Of a DNA stretch of 64,000 nucleotides, positions 43,230 through 63,992 are shown in pieces (the first letter of the stretch is position 1; each line of letters begins with the position of its first letter). The notes below the pieces were generated by a model, which was not told where the DNA came from, searched no databases, and worked only from the letters and a program-made list of their open reading frames with translations. A program made the position numbers and the translations under genes. This DNA comes from an uncultured Pelagibacteraceae bacterium (GTDB taxonomy: Bacteria; Pseudomonadota; Alphaproteobacteria; Pelagibacterales; Pelagibacteraceae): the NCBI GenBank assembly GCA_902589455.1, contig CACISX010000001.1, positions 62,001 to 126,000 on the forward strand, in the 5' to 3' direction.

Positions 43230-44339
43230 TTATTGTTTTGGAAAATAGTTCTGAAGATCACCTTCTCTGAAAACATCAGTTGTGCTACAATGTAAACTAC
43301 CACCAAAAGCGTATACTTCTCTAAAATCTATTGGAATTACTTCCATACCGAGCTTATCTAATTGTTCAGCTTGATAAACTTCTGTCTTTTCTACACATAC
43401 TGTTTTTGGATCTAGTACCAAAACATTCATTGATAGCCATACAGAATAATAACTCAGGTCTGGAGGTGAATTATGGGCAGGCTGAGCTGCATAAACAATT
43501 TCCCAGCCATTGTCTTCAAAAAGTTTCCTTTGTTCTTTTGGAAGTTTTCTAACCGGATTATTTAAAATTAACCCAGGTTTTATAGGTGTAAAAGTTGCAT
43601 CTATATGAATTGGGTAGGGATCTCCTGGAAAATTTACTGTATGGATTCTGTGATCTGGAAAATGTCTTTTTAACCAGTCAATTCCTTTTAGATTAGTTGT
43701 AAATCCATGTTGAACAATTAAATCCTTCCCAAATCTTAAAATATCTGCAGCATCAAAAAGTGGCTCCTCTTCAGTTGTAACAAAATATTTTTTCTCTGCC
43801 CACTGTAATCTTTGATCGATACTCACATCTTCAGATAAATAATTCATATGATAATCGGCATCAGTCAATCTAGGCTTAGGTGCTGTTTCGTGTCTCATGC
43901 CTGGATCCTCAACAAAGTACTTTTGTAATAATGGTCTATAGGCCAAATACTCAAACCATCTACATCTAAAACTCATTGTGGCTTCCAGCATTTCTTTTCC
44001 AACTGTAATTATAACGTCTCTAGACGGCATACACCCAAACATATGTTCTACTTCCCAATCAGGAGTAGCAATTTTTTCATCAAATTTAAGTGGAGTAGGT
44101 CTATCAACTCTTATGCCTCTTCCTTCAAGTGTTTTAACAAATTTATCTAAAAGTTCATTAGCTCTATCTATAGAATCTTGTGTTCGTCTTCCGTGTTTAC
44201 CTTTCATCACAGAGTCAGGTGGAATTTTACAATCAACAGCTGGTTCAGGTGCAGGAATACAGCAATTATCTGCCCTTCCAACAATTACATGTTTGAGCGG
44301 ATCCCATTCATTCCAACTTTGAACAATAGTCTTTTTCAT
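43230..44339 (-). CDS. Glycine-type amidinotransferase (AGAT family)
   Basis: A 369-residue amidinotransferase that moves the amidino group of arginine to an amine acceptor (glycine in animals, giving guanidinoacetate and ornithine). The catalytic triad is visible: D196 or D199 in 'LFDAADILRFG', H245 in 'PIHIDATF' and C351 in 'GGSLHCSTTD'. The 'WLSMNVLVLD' and 'NNPVRKLP' regions match human AGAT closely. The acceptor-site segment reads 'PYPIHID' where human AGAT has 'PNPMHID', so acceptor specificity may differ. No guanidinoacetate methyltransferase is present. It heads a group with two EamA permeases and a 2OG oxygenase. Confidence 0.85.
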   Translation of the reverse strand: MKKTIVQSWNEWDPLKHVIVGRADNCCIPAPEPAVDCKIPPDSVMKGKHGRRTQDSIDRANELLDKFVKTLEGRGIRVDRPTPLKFDEKIATPDWEVEHMFGCMPSRDVIITVGKEMLEATMSFRCRWFEYLAYRPLLQKYFVEDPGMRHETAPKPRLTDADYHMNYLSEDVSIDQRLQWAEKKYFVTTEEEPLFDAADILRFGKDLIVQHGFTTNLKGIDWLKRHFPDHRIHTVNFPGDPYPIHIDATFTPIKPGLILNNPVRKLPKEQRKLFEDNGWEIVYAAQPAHNSPPDLSYYSVWLSMNVLVLDPKTVCVEKTEVYQAEQLDKLGMEVIPIDFREVYAFGGSLHCSTTDVFREGDLQNYFPKQ

Positions 44340-44390: not shown

Positions 44391-45974
44391 CTAAGAATTT
44401 AAAATAAATTCTGATGCTCTTTCTGCAATCATTAAAGTTGGAGCATTTAGATTTCCACTTGTAATTTCTGGCATTACAGAAGCATCAACTACTCTTAAGT
44501 TTTCTATACCATGAACTTTTAGTTTTTGGTCAACTACAGCCATATTGTCTACTCCCATTTTTAAAGTACAAGATGGGTGATATGCTGTCTCTGCTTTTGA
44601 ACGAATATATTCCTCAAATACTTCATTGGTTTGAGAATGTTCTCCTGGTCCAATTTCTTTTCCCGCATATGGTTTTAAAGAATCTTGTCCCAAAATTTTT
44701 CTAGCTACATGAATACATTCTATTGTTTGCTTTAAATCATCTTCATGTTCTAGATAATTAAATTGAATTTTTGGGTAATCGTGAGGGTTCGAGCTATTTA
44801 ATGTTACGTGGCCTCTACTTTTTGGGTGGTTTGGACTTGCGTGTAATTGATATCCATGTCTATCTGGATCAACTAATCCATGATCGATTACAAAGGCAGG
44901 AAAAAAATGAAATTGAATATTTGGATATTCCCTTTCTGGAGAAGATTTACAAAAACCACCGGCTTCTAAAAAAGAGGTAGAGCAGGGACCACTTCTATTC
45001 AAAAACCATTGAATTCCAATTCTAACCATATTTAACTTATTAACGTATGAATATAAGGTATCTTTAGTTTTGCATTCTTGCTGAACATAAGTTTCCAAGT
45101 GATCTTGTAAGTTTTTTCCAACACCCTCTAAGTTATGAACAACATCAATTCCATTATCTTTTAAGTGTTGGCTTGGACCAATTCCAGAAAGCATTAGTAA
45201 TTGTGGTGAATTAATTGCACCTCCACTTAAAATTACTTCTTTATTGGCAAAAATTTTTTCAACTTTATTTTTAATTTTTACTTCAATTCCAATTGCTTTT
45301 TTTCCATCAAAAATAATTCTCTCAACAAAAGCATCTGTAAATATTTTTAAATTCTTTCTTTTTTTGGCGGGATTTAAATAATATTTTGACACACTAGCTC
45401 GCTCACCTTTGTGAATAGTAACATCGTACATTCCAAAACCTTCTTGTTCTTTACCATTCATGTCATTATTTATTTTATAACCAGCCTCACCAGCAGATTC
45501 GATAAATGCTTTAAATAAAGGATTTTTATTTTTAGATTGGTTTACTGGTAGTATTCCGTTACCACCTCGATATTCATTTTCACCTTCAGACCATGTTTCA
45601 ATTTTTTTGAAATAGGGAAGAACTTTGTCATAAGACCAATCCTCTAATCCAAAAGATGCCCATCTTTGATAATCATTTGGATTTCCTCTAACAAATACCA
45701 TTCCATTATGAGCAGAACACCCGCCAATCATTTTTCCCCTTGGACAAAACAATCTTCTGTTATGTAGATGAGGCTCTGGTTCTGAATAATATTTATAATT
45801 ATATTTTGGATCATGCATTGTATATAAAATCGCAAGTGGCATGTTAACTTTCCAAATATCACTGGGTTTTCCTGCCTCAAATATTGCTACATTGTTTTGA
45901 TCATTTTCTGTCAATCGATTTGCGAGTACACAGCCTGCACTTCCAGCGCCAATTATTAAATAATCAAAATTCAT
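44391..45974 (-). CDS. GMC-family FAD oxidoreductase, choline-dehydrogenase-like
   Basis: A 527-residue GMC oxidoreductase, resembling choline dehydrogenase (BetA) and other alcohol dehydrogenases. The FAD motif 'LIIGAGSAGCVLANRL' is at residues 5-20, 'GGCSAHNGMVFVRGN' is the second GMC signature region, and the C-terminal active-site histidine is in 'AYHPSCTLKMG'. It overlaps the HD-oxygenase stop (ATGA). In the glycine-betaine context, oxidation of choline or a related quaternary amino alcohol is the best guess; other alcohols are possible. A 51-base AT-rich gap precedes the amidinotransferase. Confidence 0.83.
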   Translation of the reverse strand: MNFDYLIIGAGSAGCVLANRLTENDQNNVAIFEAGKPSDIWKVNMPLAILYTMHDPKYNYKYYSEPEPHLHNRRLFCPRGKMIGGCSAHNGMVFVRGNPNDYQRWASFGLEDWSYDKVLPYFKKIETWSEGENEYRGGNGILPVNQSKNKNPLFKAFIESAGEAGYKINNDMNGKEQEGFGMYDVTIHKGERASVSKYYLNPAKKRKNLKIFTDAFVERIIFDGKKAIGIEVKIKNKVEKIFANKEVILSGGAINSPQLLMLSGIGPSQHLKDNGIDVVHNLEGVGKNLQDHLETYVQQECKTKDTLYSYVNKLNMVRIGIQWFLNRSGPCSTSFLEAGGFCKSSPEREYPNIQFHFFPAFVIDHGLVDPDRHGYQLHASPNHPKSRGHVTLNSSNPHDYPKIQFNYLEHEDDLKQTIECIHVARKILGQDSLKPYAGKEIGPGEHSQTNEVFEEYIRSKAETAYHPSCTLKMGVDNMAVVDQKLKVHGIENLRVVDASVMPEITSGNLNAPTLMIAERASEFILNS

Positions 45975-46507
45975 ATAAGTTTTGAACTTAACAACTTTTC
46001 ATAGTCATGAATAGATTTCATTTTAATGTCAGTTCTTTTAGCGGCTTCGTCAAATTTTCGGAGTAGAATTGATGGCTTAAAGTAAGATTTATTCTCAAAC
46101 TTTTTACTTTCTTTATCATTTAAAACTCCTCCTTGTAACTTGAGGCTTATTTTTGACGCATCTGATAAAAAATCAAAATATTTTTTATCTCTAGCTAAAT
46201 AACGTTTAGCTAAAACATGATATTTAATTGGCTCAACAACTTTTTGTCCAAAAAATTTTTTTAGATACTGATATCCAATATTTTCATGTTCTCCATCTAA
46301 TTTATTTTTAACTAATTCATCTGGATCTTCTAAAAGAAAGTGACCATAGTCATGAAGTAAACATGCACAAATTAAATCATCATTACATTTAGCTTTTTCA
46401 GCTAGCATGGCAGACTGAATCATATGCTCTGACATAGTTACTTTCTCACCAATGTACAAAGATTTATTATTTATAAAATTTGAAATGATTTTATAAATTA
46501 TCTTCAT
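45971..46507 (-). CDS. PhnZ/TmpB-type HD-domain di-iron oxygenase (C-P bond cleavage candidate)
   Basis: A 178-residue HD-domain protein matching the PhnZ/TmpB oxygenases, which oxidatively split 1-hydroxy-phosphonates to a carboxylate plus phosphate. Residues corresponding to all PhnZ iron ligands are present: H28, H52-D53 ('LLHDYGH'), H74 ('GEHENIG'), H97 ('HVLAKRYL') and D153 ('KFDEAAK'). The substrate-site Tyr/Glu pair occurs as Y18-I-G-E21, and 'SDASKISLKLQGG' matches the family. These align with PhnZ numbering (recalled from memory) at a shift of 6-8. Automatic annotation would call it a phosphohydrolase. It follows a TauD-type dioxygenase by 3 bases and overlaps the GMC gene. Confidence 0.78.
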   Translation of the reverse strand: MKIIYKIISNFINNKSLYIGEKVTMSEHMIQSAMLAEKAKCNDDLICACLLHDYGHFLLEDPDELVKNKLDGEHENIGYQYLKKFFGQKVVEPIKYHVLAKRYLARDKKYFDFLSDASKISLKLQGGVLNDKESKKFENKSYFKPSILLRKFDEAAKRTDIKMKSIHDYEKLLSSKLI

Positions 46508-46510
46508 TTA

Positions 46511-47341
46511 TTATTTCGGATGATCCCCTTCAACAGCTATACGATCCATTACTCTTTCAAAACCAAGCCCTTTATTTGGATAAAAATCAGCAATAGCATA
46601 ATGTTGAACACTTCTATTATCCCAAATAGCTATTGCATTTTCGGTCCATTTAAATCTACAAGTAAGATCTAATCTTGCCTGATGTTCAAATAAATAATTT
46701 AATATCTCTTTACTTTCTTCTTTGTCCATACCAACAATTTCTTTTGTGTAAGTCCAATTTACAAAAAGAATTTTTTTACCTGTTTCTGGATGAGTTCTTA
46801 AAATTGGATGAGTGTTTGAGTATTCATCCATATTTCCATTACTTTGCATTGCTTTATATTTATCAAGAAAAAACCCACCTCCTAGTGACGAATGAACTGC
46901 TGTTTTATTTTTGATTTTATTTTTTATCTCTTCTTCTAGGGTCTCCCATGCAAGTTCCATGTTTGAGAAAACAGTATCTCCTCCAACTGGTGGAATTTTA
47001 ATTGATTTTAAAATTACGGCCTTAGTTGGTTTTTCGTTATAGCTAACATCTGAATGCCAACCTTCACCCCATTGTGTTTTTTCTTCAGGCTTTTTTATTA
47101 TTCTTATTATTTCAGGGAATTCACTTAAACCTCTTACATAAGCATGTGTTTCTAATGGTCCAAATTTTGAAGCTAGAGCAACATGTTGTTCTGAGGTCAA
47201 AGGTTGATTTCGAAAAAATATAACTTTGTGTTCTAATAATAGTTTATTTATTGTTTTAAAATTTTCATCTGAAACGTCAGTCAAGTCAATTCCACTTATT
47301 TCAGCACCTAATGCTCCTGATAATAATTTTACATCAATCAT
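46511..47341 (-). CDS. TauD/TfdA-family 2OG-Fe(II) dioxygenase
   Basis: A 276-residue dioxygenase of the TauD family. The iron triad is H96-x-D98 ('GEGWHSDVSYNEKPTKA') and H247 ('WDNRSVQHYAI'), with 2OG-binding arginine near 263 ('FERVMDR'). Length is normal. Relatives hydroxylate taurine, sulfonates, 2,4-D or other small acids at the carbon next to the leaving group. Its neighbour is a PhnZ/TmpB-type oxygenase, which needs a prior hydroxylation of its phosphonate, so this gene is a good candidate for that step. It overlaps the thioesterase gene by 4 bases. Confidence 0.85.
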   Translation of the reverse strand: MIDVKLLSGALGAEISGIDLTDVSDENFKTINKLLLEHKVIFFRNQPLTSEQHVALASKFGPLETHAYVRGLSEFPEIIRIIKKPEEKTQWGEGWHSDVSYNEKPTKAVILKSIKIPPVGGDTVFSNMELAWETLEEEIKNKIKNKTAVHSSLGGGFFLDKYKAMQSNGNMDEYSNTHPILRTHPETGKKILFVNWTYTKEIVGMDKEESKEILNYLFEHQARLDLTCRFKWTENAIAIWDNRSVQHYAIADFYPNKGLGFERVMDRIAVEGDHPK

Positions 47342-47805
47342 TTTTTAAGTTTTCCAATAATGGATAAATTGTCAGAATTAAATTCATTTTTATTTTCATT
47401 TATAAAATCATCCATAATTTTAATTTTTTCATCTTCAAATTCTGTAACTTTTCTTTTACTAAGATCAATATAAAGCGATAACATTTCAATAGTTGCCGAT
47501 AATTTTTTTGATGATTTTTCAATCATTTCCATCTTAAAATGTAATCTCTTTCTATCACGATCAAAGAAGGTTAAAACAATTTCAACTTCATCTCCCTCTT
47601 TAACTTCACCATCATATGTAGTGCGAGTTTCAACAACCATGGTACTTCTTTGGGTATCCTTTGCAGATTTTTCACCCATCTTAAATTTTTCTAGAATTAT
47701 CTCCCAAGTCTGATCAAAAACTAAGACATAGTAAGCCATGTTCATATGATTATTATAATCAGTCCATTCTTTTTTGATTGTTTGGTTTGTTATGTGAAAA
47801 GACAT
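47338..47805 (-). CDS. Hot-dog thioesterase, probable betainyl-CoA thioesterase
   Basis: A 155-residue 4-hydroxybenzoyl-CoA-thioesterase-like hot-dog protein. The active-site region is 'D16-Y-N-N-H20-MNMAYYV', followed by the typical 'TTYDGEVKEGDEVEI' strand. It matches the betainyl-CoA thioesterase (CdhB-type) of carnitine degradation, which releases glycine betaine. The match is supported by its divergent partners across 47 bases: BKACE and carnitine dehydrogenase. A 'gaggg' ribosome-binding sequence precedes its ATG. It is the first gene of the long minus-strand train. Confidence 0.82.
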   Translation of the reverse strand: MSFHITNQTIKKEWTDYNNHMNMAYYVLVFDQTWEIILEKFKMGEKSAKDTQRSTMVVETRTTYDGEVKEGDEVEIVLTFFDRDRKRLHFKMEMIEKSSKKLSATIEMLSLYIDLSKRKVTEFEDEKIKIMDDFINENKNEFNSDNLSIIGKLKK

Positions 47806-47852: not shown

Positions 47853-48740
47853 ATGAACAACAAGGTATTCATATCATGTGCTGTGACGGGGTCAGGAGAT
47901 ACCGCAGGTAAGCATCCAGAATTACCAAAAACACCAGAACAAATTGCTAAAGCATCAATTGAAGCCGCAAAAGCTGGAGCTGCTATTGCTCATATTCATG
48001 TGAGGGAGGAAGACGGAACTCCAAGTAGAAGATTAGAGTTATATAAAGAGGTTGTAGATAGAGTTCGTTCAAGTGATACAGATGTGATTTTGAATCTAAC
48101 AACCGGTATGGGTGGAGATTTAGATATTGGTCAAGGCAAAGACCCATTAGAGTTTGGACCAATGACTGATATGGCAAATGTTATGGAAAGAATTGCAAAT
48201 GCTGAGCAATTTTTACCAGAGATTTGCACTTTAGATTGTGGAACTTTAAACTTTGGTGATAGTTCAGTTATAACCGTTAATACTCCAAACGATTTAAGAA
48301 AAGCTGCAAAAAGATTGAAAGAAATTAAAGTAAAACCTGAAATCGAGGCATTTGATTTAGGCAATATGTGGTTTGGTGCACAGCTATATAAAGAAGGATT
48401 GTTGGATGATCCGCCTATGTTTCAAATGTGTTTAGGAATTCCTTGGGGAGCACCAGCTACTCCATTAGCAATGCAAGCTATGAAAGATATTATGCCAAAA
48501 GAAGGCGTGTGGTCAGGCTTTGCAATTTCAAAAAATGAGATGCCATTTGTAGCACAAACAGTAATTATGGGCGGTAATCCTAGAGTAGGTTTAGAAGATA
48601 ATTTGTATTTATCTAAAGGAAAACTGGCAACAAATGCCCAATTAGTTGAAAAGGCAATTAGAATTGTTGAAGATCTAGGTGTATCAACAATGACACCCGC
48701 AGAAACAAGAGAGAAGTTAAAACTTGTTAAACACAAGTAA
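47853..48740 (+). CDS. 3-dehydrocarnitine cleavage enzyme (BKACE, DUF849)
   Basis: A 295-residue beta-keto acid cleavage enzyme. This family condenses a beta-keto acid with acetyl-CoA, yielding acetoacetate and a new acyl-CoA. The zinc-binding residues are H47 and H49 ('AIAHIHVREEDG') and E229 ('ISKNEMPF'). Co-location with carnitine dehydrogenase and a hot-dog thioesterase points to the CdhC role: 3-dehydrocarnitine plus acetyl-CoA to betainyl-CoA and acetoacetate. The downstream dehydrogenase start overlaps its stop (TAATG). Length is typical. Confidence 0.9.
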   Translation: MNNKVFISCAVTGSGDTAGKHPELPKTPEQIAKASIEAAKAGAAIAHIHVREEDGTPSRRLELYKEVVDRVRSSDTDVILNLTTGMGGDLDIGQGKDPLEFGPMTDMANVMERIANAEQFLPEICTLDCGTLNFGDSSVITVNTPNDLRKAAKRLKEIKVKPEIEAFDLGNMWFGAQLYKEGLLDDPPMFQMCLGIPWGAPATPLAMQAMKDIMPKEGVWSGFAISKNEMPFVAQTVIMGGNPRVGLEDNLYLSKGKLATNAQLVEKAIRIVEDLGVSTMTPAETREKLKLVKHK

Positions 48741-49681
48741 TGCAAAATATTAAAAAAGTTGCTGTGATTGGAACAGGTGTAATCGGAGCAGGGTGGATTA
48801 TACGTTGTTTGGCTCATAACAAAATTGTTTATGCATTTGATAAAGATATTAAGTTAAAAAAAAAATTGTTATCTGAAATTAAAAGAACTTGGCCATTTAT
48901 AAAAAAACTATTTAATAAAAAAAAATTAAATCTAAAGAATTTTTATTTTTTTACCTCAATAGAACAAACATTAAAAAATGCAGACTTTATTCAGGAGTGT
49001 GCAACTGAAAATTATTCTTTAAAAACTAAATTGATGAGCGCTATTGGAAAATACGCAAAATCTAATTCAATAATTGCTTCAAGCTCATCGGGTTTATTAC
49101 CAACGAGAATTTATTCAAAATGTAAAAATCCAGAAAGGGGAATAATTGGACATCCATTCAATCCTGTCTATTTATTGCCTGCTGTAGAAATTGTTCCAGG
49201 TAAGAGAACCTCAAAAAAAAATTTAAATTTGGCTAAAAACTTTTACAAATCAATTTCAATGAATCCAATTATGGTTAAAAATGAATTACCTGGATATTTG
49301 TCTGACAGATTACAAGAAGCTTTATGGAGAGAAGGACTACATATTATTAATGAAGGATATGCAACCACGGAAGAGTTAGATAGAGCAATTGAAGATGGCC
49401 CAGGATTAAGATGGTCTTTGATGGGTACATTTTTAACCTTTCATCTAGCTGGAGGAAAAATGGGAATGAAACATATGTTGGAACAATTTGGACCTGCTTT
49501 AAAATTACCATGGACTAAATTAAAGGCCCCTAAGCTATCAAAAAAATTATCTTCTAGATTGATTTCAGGAACAGCAAAACAGGCTAAAGGTAAATCGGTT
49601 GCAATGATATCTAATATAAGAGACCAGTATTTGGTTGATATTCAAAAGTTAAGAAAGAAATACGAAAAAAAACTTAGGTAA
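48740..49681 (+). CDS. L-carnitine 3-dehydrogenase
   Basis: A 313-residue member of the 3-hydroxyacyl-CoA dehydrogenase superfamily, matching L-carnitine dehydrogenase (CdhA/LcdH). The NAD motif is 'VIGTGVIGAGWI' (9-20). The catalytic region 'GHPFNPVYLLPAVEIVPG' and the carnitine-dehydrogenase-type 'LQEALWREGLHIINEGYAT' and 'GPGLRWSLMGTFLTFHLAGG' are very well conserved. It oxidises carnitine to 3-dehydrocarnitine for the preceding BKACE. Translationally coupled to that gene. Convergent with the SDR gene, one base apart. Confidence 0.92.
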   Translation: MQNIKKVAVIGTGVIGAGWIIRCLAHNKIVYAFDKDIKLKKKLLSEIKRTWPFIKKLFNKKKLNLKNFYFFTSIEQTLKNADFIQECATENYSLKTKLMSAIGKYAKSNSIIASSSSGLLPTRIYSKCKNPERGIIGHPFNPVYLLPAVEIVPGKRTSKKNLNLAKNFYKSISMNPIMVKNELPGYLSDRLQEALWREGLHIINEGYATTEELDRAIEDGPGLRWSLMGTFLTFHLAGGKMGMKHMLEQFGPALKLPWTKLKAPKLSKKLSSRLISGTAKQAKGKSVAMISNIRDQYLVDIQKLRKKYEKKLR

Positions 49682-50474: not shown

Positions 50475-51500
50475 TTATGATTTTGTTAATGATGTCTGTA
50501 ATTCTTTATTAGATATATAACCTTTAACATTTCCACTTTTGTCAACTACTTCACAATTAGAATTGGAGCATACAATTTGCGGTAAAAATTCCTCTATAAA
50601 TTGATCTTCATTAACTTTGATTAAGTTAGATTTATCAATGTCATTAGCCTCATTAGCACTCTTCATAATAATTTTAGCTTTAATTACTTTTGCTCTATTA
50701 ACGTCTTTAACAAATGCTTTTACATAATCATCTGCTGGTTTCATAATTATATCAACTGGGGTTCCAACTTGAACTAATTTTCCAGCGTTCAATATACCAA
50801 TATGATCTCCAAGTCTTAAAGACTCGTCTAAGTCATGCGTAATAAATACAATTGTTTTTTTTAATTCTGATTGAAGATCTAGTAATTGTTTTTGCATATC
50901 ACTTCTTATTAATGGATCTAATGCACTAAAAGCTTCATCCATTAACATTATATCACTGTCAGTTGCTAAAGCTCTTGCAAGGCCAACACGCTGCTGCATA
51001 CCACCTGATAATTGATTTGGAAATTGATTTTCAAAACCACTTAAACCAACTGCTTCAATTTTTTCCATGGCGGTCTTATTTATTTCTTCCAATGGTTTTC
51101 CTTGCATTTCTAATCCATAGCCAACATTTTGAATAACTGTTTTATGTGGAAATAGACCGAACCTTTGAAAAACCATGCTCATCTTATGTCTTCTAAAATC
51201 AATTAGTTGTTCTTTATTGAAAGACATAACGTTATTTCCTTCTACTATTATTTCACCATCAGTAGGATCGATTAATCTATTTAAATGTCTAATTAGTGTT
51301 GATTTTCCAGAACCTGACAAACCCATACAAACAAAAGTTTCACCTTCTTCTATTTTTAATGAAACATTATCAAGCCCAACAGTATGACCAGTTTGTTCTA
51401 ATACCTCTTCTTTATTTGCACCATTCTTTACCATTGGCATTACTGATTGAGGATTGCTACCAAAGATTTTATAAACATTATTAATTTCAATTTTAGACAT
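50475..51500 (-). CDS. proV: Glycine betaine/proline ABC transporter ATPase
   Basis: A 341-residue ProV/OpuAA-type ABC ATPase. Walker A 'GLSGSGKST' is at 60-68, signature 'LSGGMQQRVG', Walker B 'IMLMDEAFSALDP', with the betaine-family N-terminal extension ('KIFGSNPQ') before the ATPase core. The C-terminal ~70 residues form a short CBS-type region, which in homologues senses ionic strength. Its start overlaps the proW stop by one base. Substrates may include glycine betaine, choline or carnitine. Confidence 0.92.
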   Translation of the reverse strand: MSKIEINNVYKIFGSNPQSVMPMVKNGANKEEVLEQTGHTVGLDNVSLKIEEGETFVCMGLSGSGKSTLIRHLNRLIDPTDGEIIVEGNNVMSFNKEQLIDFRRHKMSMVFQRFGLFPHKTVIQNVGYGLEMQGKPLEEINKTAMEKIEAVGLSGFENQFPNQLSGGMQQRVGLARALATDSDIMLMDEAFSALDPLIRSDMQKQLLDLQSELKKTIVFITHDLDESLRLGDHIGILNAGKLVQVGTPVDIIMKPADDYVKAFVKDVNRAKVIKAKIIMKSANEANDIDKSNLIKVNEDQFIEEFLPQIVCSNSNCEVVDKSGNVKGYISNKELQTSLTKS

Positions 51501-52531
51501 TATTTACCTTTCTTTGTATTTGGTGCTGTTCTCTCTTGCAGAGTTTCTCCATAAGATTGAGTTATTCTATCAAGAACTATTGCTAAAAGTACAATTGCAA
51601 TTCCAGCTTCAGCAGCCCTTCCTACATTTAATTGTTGAAGACCAAGTAAAACTTCATCTCCCAAACCTCTAGTACCTATCATCGATGCAATAACAACCAT
51701 TGCTAAAGCCATCATTGTGCACTGATTTATACCTTGCATTATATTTGGTAAAGCTAATGGCATTTGTACGCCCCATAGCTTTTGTTTCTTACTTGCACCA
51801 AATGCATCTGCAGCTTCAATTACCTCAGTATCAACAAGCCTTATTCCTAAATCTGTAAGTCTTACTAAAGGAGGAACTGCATAAATAAATGTTGCTATAA
51901 TCGCTGGAACTGCACCTAAGCCAAACAACATAATACCTGGAATTAGGTAACAGAAACTTGGAATAGTTTGCATTAAATCTAAAACTGGTAAAATTATATT
52001 TCTTGTTCTTACGCTTCTTGCCATCGCTATTCCCAATGGGATTCCTGCAACTACACAAAGAAATATTCCAATTAACATTATAGCAGTTGTTTCAATTGCT
52101 TTTTGCCAAAATATTGGGTGAAGAAAACCTATAAAAAAAGTGCAAAACCCTACAAATACTGTTGTTCCAACTTTTCTACCACTTGCAAAATAAGTTAGAA
52201 CTACGACACCGAGTATAACCAATGGCCATGGAGCTTGAATTAAAAAATTTTTTACAAGCATTAACATATAAAGAAGGACATTATTTATTGCTTCAAATAT
52301 ATATCCATATTTTTCATTAAGTGTTTTAAAACCAACATTGATCCAATTCATTAAAGGTAAATCTAACCATTTTGGCCATTTACCTCCTAACCAAGAAAAA
52401 TCATTTAATAATTCTCCAATATTATCTGGTTTTCTTTTTGATTGAGAATAGCTAGTTATTAATAACCACACAAAGATAACGAGCAAACCAATATTAAAAA
52501 ATATTTTTTTATTTTTCTTTAATGCTTCCAT
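51500..52531 (-). CDS. proW: Glycine betaine/proline ABC transporter permease
   Basis: A 343-residue permease of the ProW/OpuAB family. After an N-terminal membrane segment and a polar region (about 35-85), it has the usual five to six helices of the transport domain. The coupling segment 'AADAFGASKKQKLWGVQMPLALP' lies near 242-264. 'GLGDEVLLGLQQLN' is a family motif. It overlaps proV by one base and is separated from proX by 64 bases containing a UUCG-type hairpin. Confidence 0.92.
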   Translation of the reverse strand: MEALKKNKKIFFNIGLLVIFVWLLITSYSQSKRKPDNIGELLNDFSWLGGKWPKWLDLPLMNWINVGFKTLNEKYGYIFEAINNVLLYMLMLVKNFLIQAPWPLVILGVVVLTYFASGRKVGTTVFVGFCTFFIGFLHPIFWQKAIETTAIMLIGIFLCVVAGIPLGIAMARSVRTRNIILPVLDLMQTIPSFCYLIPGIMLFGLGAVPAIIATFIYAVPPLVRLTDLGIRLVDTEVIEAADAFGASKKQKLWGVQMPLALPNIMQGINQCTMMALAMVVIASMIGTRGLGDEVLLGLQQLNVGRAAEAGIAIVLLAIVLDRITQSYGETLQERTAPNTKKGK

Positions 52532-52551
52532 AATTTACTTCTTACTTAAAG

Positions 52552-52573
52552 AAAGAGCCCCGAAGGGCTCTTT
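52552..52573 (-). terminator. UUCG-tetraloop hairpin between proX and proW
   Basis: On the transcribed (minus) strand, a perfect 9-bp stem is capped by C(TTCG)G, the extra-stable UUCG tetraloop. The tail 'ctttaag' is a weak U-run. It sits 22 bases after the proX stop. Likely a partial terminator or 3'-end stabiliser that raises proX mRNA over proWV. Confidence 0.85.
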
Positions 52574-52595
52574 TATAATTATTTAATATATTGGA

Positions 52596-53612
52596 TTATA
52601 GAGCGGCGCTAACTTTTTTAGCAACGTCTGCTGGCACCCAATCTTTCCACATGCTTTCATTTTTTAAGAAGTGCATCGCGGTAAGTTCCATATCACCATC
52701 TGACTCATCTTCGTAAAAAGCTAACATTTTGTTAACTGTAGCTGTTGGAATAGTATATTTCTTTAAGAAATCAGTTTCTTTTGGATTAGCTTTCGCCCAA
52801 TCAGTTAAAACAGATTTAGTCAAAGCCATATCTCTATATTCACATGCACAGCTTTTTTTGTAAGCATCTGGTCCGTTTGCTTTAATATCTTCAACAACTG
52901 CGGACATAGAATTCCAACAATCAGAATCAAATTTTGGTTCTGTAAGTCTAACTAGGTCAACTTTACCCATTAAACCAGTTGGCGCCCAGTAATATGTAAA
53001 GATTGGTTTTTTCTTGGCAAAAGCTCCTGCAATAGCAGCATCTAATGCTCCACCTGAACCTGGGTCAAAGTTAGTATAGTATTTATCTAAACCATACTCT
53101 ATTTGTTTAACCAAGTTTACAGTGTAACAAGTCCAACCAGATATACAGCTAGTCATTCGTCCTTTTGAAGGATCTTCTGGATCTTTAAATAAAGCTGCAA
53201 TTTTTGGATCTTTCATATCATCAACTGATTTCAAATTGTATTTATCAGCTGTTGTTTTATCTACATAGAAAGCTTGTTGTGAGTCAGGAGTGTTAACTCC
53301 AATATTAATAATAGTACCAGCCTTTTCATGTGGCTCGTAATTAGCAATAATGTTGTCATACCAAACTTCTGTAATAACATCTAATTGACCGTCGTAATGA
53401 GCAGCCATTATTGGGGTAGTACTCCCTTTAGTTACAGAAACTTCACACCCGTATCCTTTTTCAAGGATAAAAGTAGTAATTGCTGTATGGATGTTAGCAC
53501 TACTCCAGTCAAAATCTCCTAATCTTGCCTTACAATCACCAGCGTTTGCATTACTTACAATCAAAGATGACAGAAGGAAAATTGAGATTGTTAATCTCTT
53601 TAAAAACTTCAT
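52596..53612 (-). CDS. proX: Glycine betaine-type ABC substrate-binding protein
   Basis: A 338-residue OpuAC/ProX-family periplasmic binding protein. The signal peptide is residues 1-24 ('SNANA'). Several cysteines occur in the mature protein ('CISGWTCY' and 'SCACEY'). Tryptophans such as those in 'TEVWYDN' and 'TYYWAPTG' could form the aromatic box for a quaternary ammonium group. A strong AAGGAGA ribosome-binding sequence precedes the ATG. It opens the operon proX-proW-proV-SDR. Context with carnitine genes makes carnitine or gamma-butyrobetaine as likely as glycine betaine. Confidence 0.88.
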   Translation of the reverse strand: MKFLKRLTISIFLLSSLIVSNANAGDCKARLGDFDWSSANIHTAITTFILEKGYGCEVSVTKGSTTPIMAAHYDGQLDVITEVWYDNIIANYEPHEKAGTIINIGVNTPDSQQAFYVDKTTADKYNLKSVDDMKDPKIAALFKDPEDPSKGRMTSCISGWTCYTVNLVKQIEYGLDKYYTNFDPGSGGALDAAIAGAFAKKKPIFTYYWAPTGLMGKVDLVRLTEPKFDSDCWNSMSAVVEDIKANGPDAYKKSCACEYRDMALTKSVLTDWAKANPKETDFLKKYTIPTATVNKMLAFYEDESDGDMELTAMHFLKNESMWKDWVPADVAKKVSAAL

Positions 53613-53743: not shown

Positions 53744-54871
53744 ATGAGCTCAATTTCTAAATTAGAAAAAAATTCAACATATTTAAAAGTTATTTGGAAT
53801 GATGGGGAAGAAAGTAAGTTTAATTATCTTTGGTTAAGAGATAATTGTCCAACTGCTCATGACAAAGATTCAAGACATAGAATGTTTAATATTTTGGAAG
53901 TCTCAAAAAATATTAATCCCACGAAATATTCAATAGGTTCAGATGGAAAATTAGAAATTGAATGGAGCGAAGGAAATCACATAAGTTATTACGATCCTAA
54001 ATGGTTAAGAGAAAACTGTTATACTTTAAAAAATAAGCAAAAGTATGTGTCACCTTATAAACTTTGGGATAGTTCTTTAGAAAATAACTTAAAATCTATT
54101 CATATTGATCACGATGAAATTTTAAACTCTGATGATGGTTTGATTAAATGGTTAGAGCTCTTACATTATATTGGAATAGCAATTGTTAAAAATGCTCCAG
54201 TAGAAAAAAATTCTGCATTAAATGTTTTAAATCGTATAAGTCATACTCGAGAAACTTTTTTTAAAACACCTTTTGAAGTAATTAATATTCCAAAACCAAA
54301 TAATTCTGCATATACAGCGCACGCTTTAAGGAATCATATGGATTTGCCTTGGTTTGAAAATCCACCTGGATATCAATTTTTACACTGTTTAATAAATTCA
54401 GCGAAGGGCGGCGACTCATCTGCTGTAGATGCATTTGCTGTGGCAGATTATTTAAAAAATAACGAAAAAGATACTTTTGATATATTGGTAAATACTCCAC
54501 TTAAGTTTAGAGATAAAGACTATACTCAAGAAGCAGTCAGAAGTGTCTATGGTACAGCAATATCACTCACTAAAGACGGAGATTACAACGATGTTCGTTA
54601 TAGTATTGCAACACTAGATGCTCTTGATTGCCACCCAGATATAATGGATTCAGTTTATAAAGCTCATCATCGATTTGGAAATTTATTACATGATGCTAAA
54701 TTTCAAATTAAATTTAGATTAGAGCCAGGTGATATTTTTTCATTTAACAATAGAAGATTACTTCATGGAAGAACTGAGTTTGATCCTAATTCAGGTCATA
54801 GACATCTCCAAGGCTATTACATGGATAGAGATGAAATTATAGGAAGATTAAAATATCTTAAAAGTTATTAA
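53744..54871 (+). CDS. Gamma-butyrobetaine hydroxylase-like 2OG dioxygenase (BBOX/TmpA type)
   Basis: A 375-residue dioxygenase with an N-terminal DUF971-like domain (about 1-105) and a TauD-type catalytic domain. Iron ligands are H198-x-D200 ('LRNHMDLPW') and H341 ('RRLLHGRTEF'). BBOX enzymes convert gamma-butyrobetaine to L-carnitine; the homologous TmpA hydroxylates trimethylaminoethylphosphonate. The N-terminal segment 'LRDNCPTAHD' keeps only one of the cysteines that bind zinc in human BBOX. With carnitine dehydrogenase, BKACE and thioesterase nearby, a carnitine-forming role is likely; TmpA activity is the main alternative. Faces proX divergently. No ribosome-binding site is seen. Confidence 0.82.
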   Translation: MSSISKLEKNSTYLKVIWNDGEESKFNYLWLRDNCPTAHDKDSRHRMFNILEVSKNINPTKYSIGSDGKLEIEWSEGNHISYYDPKWLRENCYTLKNKQKYVSPYKLWDSSLENNLKSIHIDHDEILNSDDGLIKWLELLHYIGIAIVKNAPVEKNSALNVLNRISHTRETFFKTPFEVINIPKPNNSAYTAHALRNHMDLPWFENPPGYQFLHCLINSAKGGDSSAVDAFAVADYLKNNEKDTFDILVNTPLKFRDKDYTQEAVRSVYGTAISLTKDGDYNDVRYSIATLDALDCHPDIMDSVYKAHHRFGNLLHDAKFQIKFRLEPGDIFSFNNRRLLHGRTEFDPNSGHRHLQGYYMDRDEIIGRLKYLKSY

Positions 54872-60895: not shown

Positions 60896-61615
60896 ATGGA
60901 TTTAAACATAGTTAATAATGAGGAAAAATTTTTAGCAGGTAAACTTCAAGGATATTCTTTAAATGATGCAGAAAATAAATTTGATGAAAAAGGAAATCCT
61001 TTACCATTTTCAGGCTGCACAATAATTTGCAATATTCCTTTAAATACTGATTTATCAGATGAGATAATTAGTCTTCAAAAAAAAATAGAAAATTATAATC
61101 CCAACAAAACTTATTTCTATTTACCTCCTTCCAGTTTTCATATGACATTATTTGATTGTTGCAATTTTAATACAAAAAACACCAATTATTGGCCATCAGA
61201 TATAGATCCTGATATGGATTACAAAGATATAGCTATTGAATTAAATAAAAGAATTCAGAATTATAAATTTCCAGAAGAATTTAATCTTAAACTAAAAATG
61301 TTTTTTGGTGGTTACAGTATTATTTTAGAACCATATTCTGAAAAGGATGAAAAAATATTAAGAAATTGTAGAGATGAACTAAGCAATTTATTAAAAATTA
61401 AATTTGAAAACCATCAAAGATATACTTTTCATATTACTTTGGGATATATCTTGAGAGAACTTAATCAGATTGAAATAAAAAATTTAATTGAATTTAATAA
61501 AAATCTATCTCTGGACTTTAGTAAAAAATTTCCAAAAATTACTTTTACAAAACCTGAAATATGTACTTTTGAAGATATGCTAGAATTTAAAAGTATTAAT
61601 CTTTCCAGCCTGTAA
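60896..61615 (+). CDS. DUF1868 2H-phosphoesterase-family protein
   Basis: A 239-residue protein matching DUF1868, a branch of the 2H phosphoesterase (LigT-like) superfamily. Two HxT motifs are present: H82-M-T84 ('SFHMTLFDCCN') and H179-I-T181 ('YTFHITLGYIL'), which would form the catalytic pair. 'GYSLNDAENKFDEKGNPLPF' is the conserved N-terminal region. The family's substrate is not settled. Its place 9 bases after ugpQ suggests a role in cleaving glycerophosphodiester-derived or cyclic glycerophosphate compounds. Its 3' end overlaps the convergent ALDH gene by 20 bases. Confidence 0.78.
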   Translation: MDLNIVNNEEKFLAGKLQGYSLNDAENKFDEKGNPLPFSGCTIICNIPLNTDLSDEIISLQKKIENYNPNKTYFYLPPSSFHMTLFDCCNFNTKNTNYWPSDIDPDMDYKDIAIELNKRIQNYKFPEEFNLKLKMFFGGYSIILEPYSEKDEKILRNCRDELSNLLKIKFENHQRYTFHITLGYILRELNQIEIKNLIEFNKNLSLDFSKKFPKITFTKPEICTFEDMLEFKSINLSSL

Positions 61616-63029
61616 CAGTTTTTACTTCTAAATATTCTTCAAGCCCCCAAACTCCACCTTCTCTTCCATTTCCTGATTGTCTATATCCTCCAAATGGTGT
61701 TCCGGCATCAGCTGTATTTCCATTGATATAAACACATCCTGACCTTAGTTTTTTTGCAACCCTATGAGCTTTCTCTCTATCATCTGTTTGTAAATAATTT
61801 CCTAAACCATAAGATGTATCATTTACAATATTTATAGCCTCATCTTCATTTTCAAAAGGGATTATGGAAAGTACAGGACCAAAAATTTCCTCCTTTGCAA
61901 TTCTCATTTCATTTGTAACGTTTGTGAAAATTGTTGGCTTAATAAAATAACCTTTATTTAATCCATTAGGCAGCTCGGGACCACCCGCAGATAATGTTGC
62001 TCCTTCTGATATTCCACTTTCAATTAAATTTATAATTTTATCATACTGAGTTTTAGAAATAACCGGACCAATATGATCTCCTTTTTTTGATGCTTGATCT
62101 ACTTTTATCTTATTGGCTTCATCTACTGCCTCATCCACTGCTCTTTTATAAATAGATTTTTCAACCAACATTCTTGTTGGAGCATCACATGACTGACCAG
62201 AATTACTCATTACATTTCTTATGCCATCTCTAACTGCATTTTTATAACTATCTGCAAAAACTATATTTCCACCTTTGCCACCAAGTTCTAAGCAAACTCT
62301 TTTTATTGTTTCGGCTGCATTTTTCGAAATTAGTCGTCCAGCACGTGTTGATCCTGTAAATGAAACCATATCTATATCTGGATGACTAGATATTTGTGTC
62401 CCTACTCCTGCACCATCTCCATTAACAAGGTTAAATACTCCTTTTGGGAAACCAACTTCATCAATCATTTCTGCAAACAACATTCCAGAAATAGGTGCTA
62501 TCTCAGATGGTTTTAGTATCATTGTACATCCAGTTGCAAATGCTGGAACTACCTTGAGGGCTATTTGGTTGATTGGCCAATTCCATGGGGTAATTAGTCC
62601 GCAAACTCCGATTGGTTCATAATAAATGTGGTTATTAGATTTTTGATTAAAATGTTCATCAAACTCAAAGTCTTTAAGTCTTAAAATAAAATCTTCTAAG
62701 TGTGTTTGCCCAGATCCGGTTTGAACATCTGTTGCCCAATCCATTGGTGCACCCATTTCAAGAGAAATAGCTTCTGCCATTTCTCCGAACCTTTTTTTAT
62801 AAACTACTAGCAATTTTTCGAGAAGTTCTAACCTTTCTTCTTTGCTAGTTTCTTTCCAGGTTTCAAATGCTGTTTTTGCGGCTTGAACCGCATTATCTGT
62901 ATCTTTTTTTGAGCCTAATGAAATAACTGCAAAGGGATCTTCATTACAAGGGTTAATTACCTCAAAGTCATTTTTTTCTATTGGATCAACCCATTTACCA
63001 TTAATATAAAATTTCCTTTTATCTAGCAT
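61596..63029 (-). CDS. NAD(P)-dependent aldehyde dehydrogenase
   Basis: A 477-residue ALDH-superfamily enzyme. Catalytic residues are N150 ('TPWNWPI'), E248 ('LELGGKGGNIVF') and C281 ('NSGQSCDAPTRM'). The ELGGKGGN and SCDAP variants set it apart from the ALDH at 34.5 kb and from ordinary betaine aldehyde dehydrogenases. Substrate unknown. It lies 21 bases after a 3-hydroxyisobutyrate-dehydrogenase-family gene on the same strand, so the two may act successively on one compound. Confidence 0.88.
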   Translation of the reverse strand: MLDKRKFYINGKWVDPIEKNDFEVINPCNEDPFAVISLGSKKDTDNAVQAAKTAFETWKETSKEERLELLEKLLVVYKKRFGEMAEAISLEMGAPMDWATDVQTGSGQTHLEDFILRLKDFEFDEHFNQKSNNHIYYEPIGVCGLITPWNWPINQIALKVVPAFATGCTMILKPSEIAPISGMLFAEMIDEVGFPKGVFNLVNGDGAGVGTQISSHPDIDMVSFTGSTRAGRLISKNAAETIKRVCLELGGKGGNIVFADSYKNAVRDGIRNVMSNSGQSCDAPTRMLVEKSIYKRAVDEAVDEANKIKVDQASKKGDHIGPVISKTQYDKIINLIESGISEGATLSAGGPELPNGLNKGYFIKPTIFTNVTNEMRIAKEEIFGPVLSIIPFENEDEAINIVNDTSYGLGNYLQTDDREKAHRVAKKLRSGCVYINGNTADAGTPFGGYRQSGNGREGGVWGLEEYLEVKTVTGWKD

Positions 63030-63050
63030 TTAATAATCTTAGCACATTAA

Positions 63051-63992
63051 TTAAATTTCATATCCTTTTTCTTCAGGTTCATTATCCACAAGTTCATCAG
63101 GAAAACCTTCAGCTCTAAAATCAATTTTATTTAAATCTTCCATTCTTTTTACAATCATCGAAGACCATGCTCTTGAACCATATTTTTTTTGACCATCTTT
63201 AAATATTTCAACTATCTTTGGAGAAATCTCTAAAGGAGTGTTTAATTTCTTAGCCAGATTATCAAATAAACCAGTATCTTTTAAAACAAGATCCATTGTG
63301 AAATTAATATTATAAGAGCCATTTAAAATAACCTGACTTTCTGTTTCATGAACAAATGAATTTCCAGATGAAACTGCTATACCTTTAAATACTTTAGCTA
63401 GATCTAAATTTGATTTTTTTGCAATAGTCCATGCTTCACCTAAAGCCACTAAATGAACCGATGCCAAATAATTTGTTATGACTTTAAGAACCGATGCACT
63501 ACCTAATTCACCAGTATGCAGTACTTTTCTGCCCATTACAGTTAATGCAGGCAAAATTTTTTCAAAAGCTTTTCTTTCTCCACCTACAAATATAGCAATA
63601 TTACCTGTAGCAGCTCTATGACAACCACCACTTACAGGTCCATCTAGTGGAATAGCTTTTTTTGATATTACCTTGTTTCCAAGTCTTTTAACTTCGTTTT
63701 CATCTGTTGTACTCATTTCTAACCAAATTTTATTTTTTGATAAACCATTTATAATTCCATCTTCATTTTCCATAACTTCTGCAGAAACGTCAGGTGAAGG
63801 AAGAGAAGTAATAATTAGATCTGATTGTTCTGCTAATTCTTTAGGAGACTTTGCAATTTTAGCTCCAAGCCCTTTAAGTGAATTTGTTAAACTTTCATCT
63901 ATATCTCTAACAGTAACATCGAAATTATTTCTTAATAAGCTTCCAGCGAGTTTACCGCCTACATTACCCAATCCAATAAAACCTATTTTCAT
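63051..63992 (-). CDS. 3-hydroxyisobutyrate dehydrogenase-family NAD(P) oxidoreductase
   Basis: A 313-residue beta-hydroxyacid dehydrogenase. The Rossmann motif 'GFIGLGNVGGKLAGSL' is at 4-19, the substrate loop 'LDGPVSGGCHRAATG' at 117-130 (family DxPVSGG), and the catalytic lysine is K170 ('SASVLKVITNYL'). Length is slightly above the usual 290-300 because of an acidic C-terminal tail. Members oxidise 3-hydroxyisobutyrate, tartronate semialdehyde, 6-phosphogluconate-like acids or sulfolactaldehyde-type compounds. Complete: the ATG is 8 bases from the window edge. Precedes an ALDH in the same transcript. Confidence 0.87.
   Translation of the reverse strand: MKIGFIGLGNVGGKLAGSLLRNNFDVTVRDIDESLTNSLKGLGAKIAKSPKELAEQSDLIITSLPSPDVSAEVMENEDGIINGLSKNKIWLEMSTTDENEVKRLGNKVISKKAIPLDGPVSGGCHRAATGNIAIFVGGERKAFEKILPALTVMGRKVLHTGELGSASVLKVITNYLASVHLVALGEAWTIAKKSNLDLAKVFKGIAVSSGNSFVHETESQVILNGSYNINFTMDLVLKDTGLFDNLAKKLNTPLEISPKIVEIFKDGQKKYGSRAWSSMIVKRMEDLNKIDFRAEGFPDELVDNEPEEKGYEI

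Follow-up and report, generated by a model that had tools for sequence, protein, structure and literature searches.

A putative TmpB-like HD-domain oxygenase encoded beside a TauD-type dioxygenase in SAR11 genomes

The stretch of DNA analysed here (the window; 64,000 nucleotides, positions 62,001-126,000 of contig CACISX010000001.1) comes from an uncultured Pelagibacteraceae bacterium whose genome, labelled G000, is 84% complete; genomes, fetched loci and contigs are labelled G, L and C, each with a number. Our subject is a run of four minus-strand genes that encode, in order of transcription, a 4HBT thioesterase, a TauD-type dioxygenase (TauD), an HD-domain protein (HD) and a GMC oxidoreductase (GMC). 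The 4HBT and TauD genes overlap by four bases, as do the HD and GMC genes, and these overlaps indicate that the four genes are packed as one run; TauD lies three bases upstream of HD, as a first-pass annotation of the window had reported.

47338..47805, minus strand: 4HBT thioesterase, probably a betainyl-CoA thioesterase (PRK07531, 60.6 bits over its end; cut-off 592)
46511..47341, minus strand: TauD-type Fe(II)/2-oxoglutarate (2OG) dioxygenase, candidate hydroxylase, 276 amino acids (aa), with equivalents of the Fe ligands and the 2OG Arg
45971..46507, minus strand: HD-domain di-iron oxygenase, probably TmpB-like, 178 aa, with six ligands, YxxE loop, TmpB-type loop residues and PhnZ/TmpB fold
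44391..45974, minus strand: GMC oxidoreductase, choline-dehydrogenase-like, 527 aa (PRK02106, 752.3 bits, cut-off 605; PDB entry 9lq0)

The HD protein and its family

The first-pass annotation described a 178-residue HD protein with H28, H52, D53, H74, H97 and D153 and with Y18 and E21, and all of these stand at the positions it gave. They align with their counterparts in TmpB (6npa) and PhnZ (4mlm), make the di-iron ligand set H...HD...H...H...D complete (H28, H52/D53, H74, H97, D153), and are invariant, Y18 and E21 included, across 12 aligned SAR11 HD proteins (75-100% identity). The YxxE loop (Y18, E21), which separates PhnZ/TmpB HD oxygenases from MIOX (according to a passage of PMC8177086), is present in 24 of 24 rows of the TauD/GMC-type SAR11 group. 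The open reading frame (ORF) is at full length in 47 of the 47 SAR11 loci fetched, and in five comparisons its nonsynonymous divergence (dN, 0.12-0.19) is far below the synonymous (dS, 1.8-2.5, saturated), giving a dN/dS of about 0.06 to 0.09; the ORF is therefore not due to chance, and the gene is under purifying selection.

A phmmer search of the PDB returned as significant relatives only TmpB (E 1.3e-30) and PhnZ (2.7e-27 and similar). An AlphaFold2 model built from 12 SAR11 sequences (mean pLDDT 81.9) was compared by fold (VIA Z), scoring 21.9 with PhnZ and 21.2 with TmpB (range 20.5-21.9), against 10.9 with MIOX and lower values with other HD proteins. The NCBIfam models for Phn-HD, TmpB and PhnZ1 score the protein at 167.3, 153.4 and 139.4 bits, all three below their cut-offs. 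HD belongs with the PhnZ/TmpB oxygenases rather than with the HD hydrolases, as the first-pass annotation had held. In Pfam it has one match above cut-off, to the general HD family (34 bits), which would also suit an ordinary HD phosphohydrolase (a nucleotidase or alarmone hydrolase); we rule out that identity, which is barely credible for a protein that lies with PhnZ/TmpB in fold and sequence, far above the hydrolases, and conserves both the YxxE loop and all six di-iron ligands.

TmpB-type loop residues and TmpA in sister genomes

We compared loop residues over 20 rows of the TmpA-linked TmpB clade, 13 PhnM-linked relatives, 29 SAR11 rows and PhnZ. Positions 24 and 29 are T and M, respectively, throughout the TmpB-clade rows (20/20) and the SAR11 rows (29/29), against S9 T3 N1 and A12 G1 in the PhnM-linked rows and N and S in PhnZ. 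At position 25 the TmpB clade has M18 I2, SAR11 M20 I8 T1, the PhnM-linked rows Q12 H1 and PhnZ Q; at position 57 the states are F14 Y6, F in 29/29, L13 and Y, in the same order. The window HD carries T24, M25, M29 and F57, which is the set of the TmpA-linked clade and not that of PhnZ. TmpB of Leisingera caerulea (6npa) shares with it the six di-iron ligands, the YxxE motif, the loop residues T, M/I, M and F, and the fold; the two differ in sequence (39% identity in the structural alignment), in that the window HD sits in a SAR11 clade of its own, and in that TmpB has TmpA beside it, whereas the window HD has TauD instead and TmpA only beside its orthologues in L108 and L113. PhnZ (4mlm, 4n71), which acts on 2-aminoethylphosphonate (2-AEP), is alike in fold, ligands and YxxE, but its loop reads N, Q, S, Y and its partner PhnY* is of PhyH type; the window HD has neither those loop residues nor an adjacent PhyH-type partner, a Pfam scan having found no PhyH-type gene in the run (44391-47805).

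Relatives of HD outside SAR11 comprise 25 matches among 398 genomes of the phylum (best 45% identity), and in 10 of the 11 of these loci that were read a TmpA-like gene adjoins HD, its product being 39.5-71.8% identical to a plasmid TmpA. In a tree of 137 rows the window HD falls inside a SAR11-only clade (31 rows, SH-aLRT 99). The loop residues support a TmpB rather than a PhnZ character for the protein, which would fit a quaternary-ammonium phosphonate, and we consider it very probable that HD is a TmpB-like oxygenase of the carbon-phosphorus (C-P) bond, with its chemistry and substrate predicted.

A subgroup of five rows within the SAR11 clade (L108, L111, L113, L122, L124; SH-aLRT 92) stands in another gene setting. 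The HD orthologues of L108 and L113 lie divergent from TmpA, with 66 and 84 bases between, and the two TmpA proteins score 541.9 and 531.7 bits (cut-off 400). TmpA exceeds this cut-off in 6 of the 24 HD-bearing genomes of the family, and all six keep N187, N287 and R288, the phosphonate-binding residues of TmpA (from a passage of PMC9296572, whose residue numbering was converted to that of the chain with a fixed shift of 6). Four of these six genomes (G453, G496, G472 and G502) have TmpA elsewhere, and the only Phn-HD match of each lies in the TauD-HD-GMC unit (TauD being visible in G472 and G496 only as a fragment at a contig end). The loci from G453 and G502 (L249, L250) have the gene order aldehyde dehydrogenase (ALDH), 3-hydroxyisobutyrate-dehydrogenase-like (HIBADH), TmpA, EamA (this last label assigned by reading), and in L251 and L252 a DMGDH-like gene sits between HIBADH and TmpA. 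Related ALDH and HIBADH genes lie at the right end of the window, which also encodes a TmpA-like protein:

61596..63992, minus strand: ALDH and HIBADH genes, whose relatives adjoin TmpA in sister genomes
53744..54871, plus strand: gamma-butyrobetaine-hydroxylase-like (GBBH-like) 2OG dioxygenase (TIGR02409, 316.3 of 414.75)

Just past the window HIBADH overlaps an EamA-like transporter gene by four bases, and TmpA is not present in G000 between HIBADH and EamA, its slot in two sister genomes. The same site holds a 259-aa gene in G468 and a divergent gene in G463 (the stretch from G423 did not reach it). TmpA above cut-off was not found in G000, nor in G423, G463 and G468 (98-99% complete). The empty slot, together with an HD gene that stands beside TauD, suggests that TauD displaced TmpA as the partner of HD in the window lineage. 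Two TmpA-like proteins of G000 are unlikely to hydroxylate 2-(trimethylammonio)ethylphosphonate, because each is without two of the three phosphonate-binding residues (the GBBH-like protein keeps N187 and has I and A in place of N287 and R288; the other is encoded at C1:242178). Two findings go beyond the first-pass annotation: authentic TmpA adjoins HD orthologues in sister genomes of SAR11, and G000 has an empty TmpA slot. The candidate substrate class of that annotation, a quaternary-ammonium phosphonate, fits the TmpB-type loop and the TmpA genes beside both the non-SAR11 relatives and the SAR11 orthologues.

TauD as a candidate hydroxylase

The only significant Pfam match of TauD (46511-47341) is PF02668; it has no match to the TmpA model NF049936 at E 0.01, and it scores 231.4 bits on the taurine dioxygenase model, under the cut-off of 313. 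Its lack of a DUF971 domain, by which the first-pass annotation set it apart from TmpA, is real and discriminates poorly, in that the SAR11 TmpA of L108 likewise has no PF06155 match at E 0.01; length (276 vs 381 aa) and the absent NF049936 match are better discriminators. With Escherichia coli TauD it shares the equivalents of the Fe ligands (H96, D98, H247), of the 2OG Arg (R263), of V102 and of the taurine-binding H70 and R270 (kept as H66 and R267), but it differs at D94/N95, which hold the taurine amine in the E. coli enzyme (according to part of PMC9304159) and are replaced by W91/G92, and at Y73, replaced by V69. The amine-binding residues and the model score rule out a canonical taurine dioxygenase, and the pocket so predicted might accommodate a ligand whose head is anionic and whose tail is cationic and non-polar. 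Plasmid relatives of TauD comprise 61 records and are 38-40% identical among the matches listed.

We evaluated how tightly TauD, HD and GMC keep together at two depths. The close set consists of 47 SAR11 loci that a search with the window protein found, their best segments being 75-100% identical to it (L050 and L051, not HD loci of this kind, were left out). TauD is immediately upstream of HD in all 47 (truncated in L030 by the end of the contig), and GMC is the next gene downstream in each of the 46 loci that extend so far. Of 147 sampled Pelagibacteraceae genomes 24 have a Phn-HD match, 22 of them of the window type (G415 and G520 being left out of that count); among the 22, GMC follows HD in 17 and TauD precedes it in 14 (cut by a contig end in G401, G472 and G496, and broken by a stop in G453). 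G484 has HD-GMC with TauD four genes off, and G489 has 4HBT-GMC with neither TauD nor HD. Among 125 HD loci with neighbours read (23 from Pelagibacteraceae; L225, which has no PhnZ-family HD, was left out of the table), no TauD of this cluster, as defined by the clustering applied, adjoins HD outside Pelagibacteraceae; in L127 such a TauD lies three genes downstream of HD. Conservation of the pair in SAR11, which the first-pass annotation proposed to check, is thus borne out in the close loci and in 14 of 22 family genomes, while TauD and HD also come and go separately. The copy in G453 (L112; G453:C5:844-1664) has TauD split by TAA with HD and GMC open, and is either decayed or an assembly error.

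In the PhnZ/TmpB mechanism, as passages of PMC8177086 describe it, Fe1 binds the hydroxyphosphonate, and a swing of the YxxE loop brings Glu to the amino group and takes Tyr away from Fe2; this second iron then binds O2, and cleavage of the C-P bond follows. The residues needed are all present in the window HD. Taking together the observed family, fold, ligands, loop residues, gene order, TmpA-linked orthologues and empty slot, we propose that HD would be a TmpB-like mixed-valent di-iron oxygenase whose substrate, an (R)-1-hydroxyphosphonate that ends in a quaternary ammonium group and is most likely 1-hydroxy-2-(trimethylammonio)ethylphosphonate, would be held by Fe1, E21 and the hydrophobic loop. 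Substrate binding would move Y18 off Fe2, O2 would bind, and C-P cleavage would yield phosphate and glycine betaine. TauD would supply the substrate by hydroxylating C1 of 2-(trimethylammonio)ethylphosphonate, in the role that falls to TmpA in sister SAR11 genomes, and GMC (through choline or betaine aldehyde oxidation), the carnitine genes and ProXWV would feed the same product pool. Whether TauD is the hydroxylase of this pathway, as its position and the loss of TmpA lead us to infer, we judge to be evenly poised, and the whole of our best explanation, a TmpB-like HD with TauD as its hydroxylase, may as readily hold as fail. There is likewise an even chance that TauD-HD is a variant of the TmpAB pathway, new by its hydroxylase partner; the first-pass view of a new pairing distinct from TmpA has in its favour the adjacency and the absent NF049936 match, and depends on a hydroxylase role for TauD that is itself presumed.

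Several observations weigh against this explanation. HD fails the curated cut-off of TIGR03276 (Phn-HD, 214.6 bits), which is reached in 0 of the 147 family genomes, and that of the TmpB equivalog NF049941 (300 bits), and for the latter reason we file it as TmpB-like and not as TmpB. The SAR11 TauD-type rows have P in place of C93 of TmpB (P93 being the state of the PhnM group), mostly A in place of C105, and Y in place of I54. The tree with PhnZ and TmpB to which the first-pass annotation looked gave a divided answer: the quick tree (137 rows) did not group the SAR11 clade with TmpB, although SAR11 and TmpB held as one clade were not rejected (p-AU 0.626; log-likelihood 4.83 above the free search), PhnZ being a long branch in both trees and the SAR11 rows having an unusual letter make-up. 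The TauD residues are unspecific, with R270 found in 29/29 and H70 in 20/29 returned class relatives (counts that exclude the distant TauD of L127), and with F in 24/29 and W in 3/29 at the D94 site, for which reason W91 was dropped as a quaternary-ammonium marker; four TauDs from genomes or loci without an adjacent HD carry the same features, and the pocket evidence is therefore permissive, not decisive. TauD-GMC occurs without a Phn-HD match in the near-complete G485 and G507 (97% complete), in G415, where the sole HD match is of another type, and in G437 at a distance of about 20 kb from HD; in G449 and G503, which have HD-GMC, neither a nearby TauD nor a TmpA above cut-off was found. The association of TauD with HD is weak in the 28 GMC genomes (16 with both, 3 with TauD only, 4 with HD only, 5 with neither; Fisher p 0.068; 17/4/5/121 over all 147 genomes, kinship ignored). 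G000 has three PhyH (PhnY*-type) matches elsewhere, and a PhyH-type hydroxylase may be the partner of HD in trans. The scanned part of the other window ORFs gave no phosphonate-specific gene, and BKACE (beta-keto acid cleavage enzyme), one of the betaine-related neighbours in the window, is absent upstream of the trio in L029, L031, L036, L042, L043 and L045 (10 kb upstream each).

Because TauD and HD are found apart, TauD may serve another, perhaps sulfonate, substrate. It is possible, though we do not favour it, that HD is TmpB-like and TauD is not its hydroxylase: TauD would convert a sulfonate or ester analogue (N,N,N-trimethyltaurine, for instance) to betaine aldehyde and sulfite, GMC would oxidise the aldehyde to glycine betaine, and the run would be shared because HD and TauD both yield glycine betaine, HD taking its substrate from another 2OG enzyme or importing it already hydroxylated. 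The TauD-GMC units of G485, G507, G415 and G437 suit such a division, as do the presence of GMC in 17 of the 19 genomes with a TauD orthologue (the 39-40% paralogues of G422 being set aside; in the exceptions, G506 and G510, TauD lies at the end of a contig or close to it), the position of TauD after homocysteine S-methyltransferase and DMGDH-like genes in L247 (where TauD-GMC is found) and, by reading, in L248, the kept equivalents of the sulfonate-binding His and Arg, and the trimethyltaurine reported from seaweed extract in part of PMC10538540. HD is nevertheless flanked directly by TauD and GMC in all 46 close loci reaching GMC, and in G423, G463 and G468, with no TmpA over cut-off, it would lack its canonical hydroxylase. 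We know of no tested TauD from the clade of the window TauD. A doubtful further reading makes TauD-HD-GMC a SAR11 funnel for phosphono- and sulfono-betaines alike, in which one 2OG dioxygenase would hydroxylate C1 of both trimethylaminoethylphosphonate and trimethyltaurine; the hydroxysulfonate would fall apart to betaine aldehyde, to be finished by GMC, the stable hydroxyphosphonate would be finished by HD, and either branch would yield glycine betaine, with sulfite or phosphate. Such a funnel would explain both why TauD-GMC can stand without HD and why HD enters the unit upon TmpA loss.

That the pair degrades some other phosphonate (2-aminoethyl-, methyl- or longer-chain) in the manner of PhnY*/PhnZ or PhnZ1, its betaine neighbours being incidental, is improbable, given loop residues that match TmpB and are unlike those of PhnZ and the PhnM-linked group, a PhnZ1 score that is the lowest of the three phosphonate models, and orthologues that adjoin authentic TmpA; such substrates are nonetheless all covered by the same family (in part of PMC10574752), the neighbours do vary, and a 2022 survey, in a passage of PMC9381506, attributes 45% of the phnZ sequences from the sea to Pelagibacterales and takes phnZ to signify 2-AEP catabolism. 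If that count includes the window HD clade, a large part of marine 'phnZ' would be TmpB-like, and a quaternary phosphonate would be the source from which this part releases phosphate and glycine betaine. The splitting of phnZ into subclades, with the 2-AEP form at very few sites (a passage of PMC8316502), would fit such a reading. A TmpB-like HD served by TauD would also make the dioxygenase swap a clear example of how a two-enzyme phosphonate pathway can have one partner displaced, a possible intermediate state of which persists in the four sister genomes G453, G496, G472 and G502. Our searches of open-licence PMC papers turned up no description of a phosphonate-degrading TauD-HD pair from SAR11.

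The betaine and carnitine district and further HD types

Beyond the run, the window contains the following genes:

47853..48740, plus strand: BKACE, presumably for the dehydrocarnitine step (PF05853, 308.5 bits); neighbour, not constant
48740..49681, plus strand: L-carnitine 3-dehydrogenase-like (PRK07066, 350 bits; cut-off 414); neighbour, not constant
50475..53612, minus strand: glycine betaine/choline ABC transporter proX, proW, proV (OpuAC domain; proV subfamily, 355.8 bits, cut-off 326.6)

With GMC, a UgpB gene (263.7 of 411 bits) and a GDPD gene, they form a choline/carnitine/glycine-betaine district. The glycine-betaine cluster of the first-pass annotation is thus present in the window, but its membership is not constant, BKACE being missing upstream in the six loci named above; the variation of neighbours among loci rules out the carnitine and betaine genes as fixed partners of the trio. 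The 4HBT protein resembles the thioesterase end of carnitine 3-dehydrogenase, and its gene is missing in L047. GMC passes PRK02106 but fails the betA equivalog (686.4 bits, cut-off 732.1), has choline dehydrogenase 9lq0 as its best PDB match (512.5 bits), and differs from BetA also in that its gene overlaps that of an HD oxygenase. It is not the only GMC of the genome: a second choline-dehydrogenase-like GMC (42% identity) lies at G000:C7:3385-4968 (L256), beside TRAP-type transporter genes (labelled by reading). A deiminase/amidinotransferase-like gene beside GMC (window 43230-44339) is swapped elsewhere for an arginase-family gene (L029:12117-13103; match scanned in L117). Between the carnitine genes and 4HBT, an HpcH/HpaI-type lyase gene is inserted in L123:4377-5709, as in some genomes, and another gene, of 241 aa, in L287:3930-5987; these inserts perhaps represent a variant carnitine or betainyl-CoA route.

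Other HD proteins were also noted. A second SAR11 HD family of 184-185 aa occurs in the L111:6824-8475 region and at L225:3995-4552 (G000, C4), L252:210-764 and L293:1040-1594; the L111 copy matches Pfam HD only, has no NCBIfam match at 1e-10 and is remotely similar to PhnZ (2.9e-5). Its gene overlaps that of a TmpA-like 2OG dioxygenase (333.9 bits, under cut-off) that is without two phosphonate residues, and the two are possibly another 2OG/HD oxygenase pair. A third SAR11 type, a Phn-HD outside the window clade, lies at L106:4954-5505 and in L107 (in L106, Phn-HD 201.8 and PhnZ1 157.0 bits), by reading with no obvious hydroxylase adjacent. One scan of viral contigs confirmed no viral copies. 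A Pseudomonas phage record (L231; OQ658365.1, 61049-61528) has an unannotated PhnZ-like HD stretch near attR, either host flank or cargo, and a Nostoc plasmid (L230; NZ_CP046705.1) carries a Phn-HD oxygenase gene within a C-P lyase operon, together with a fosfomycin-resistance-type gene.

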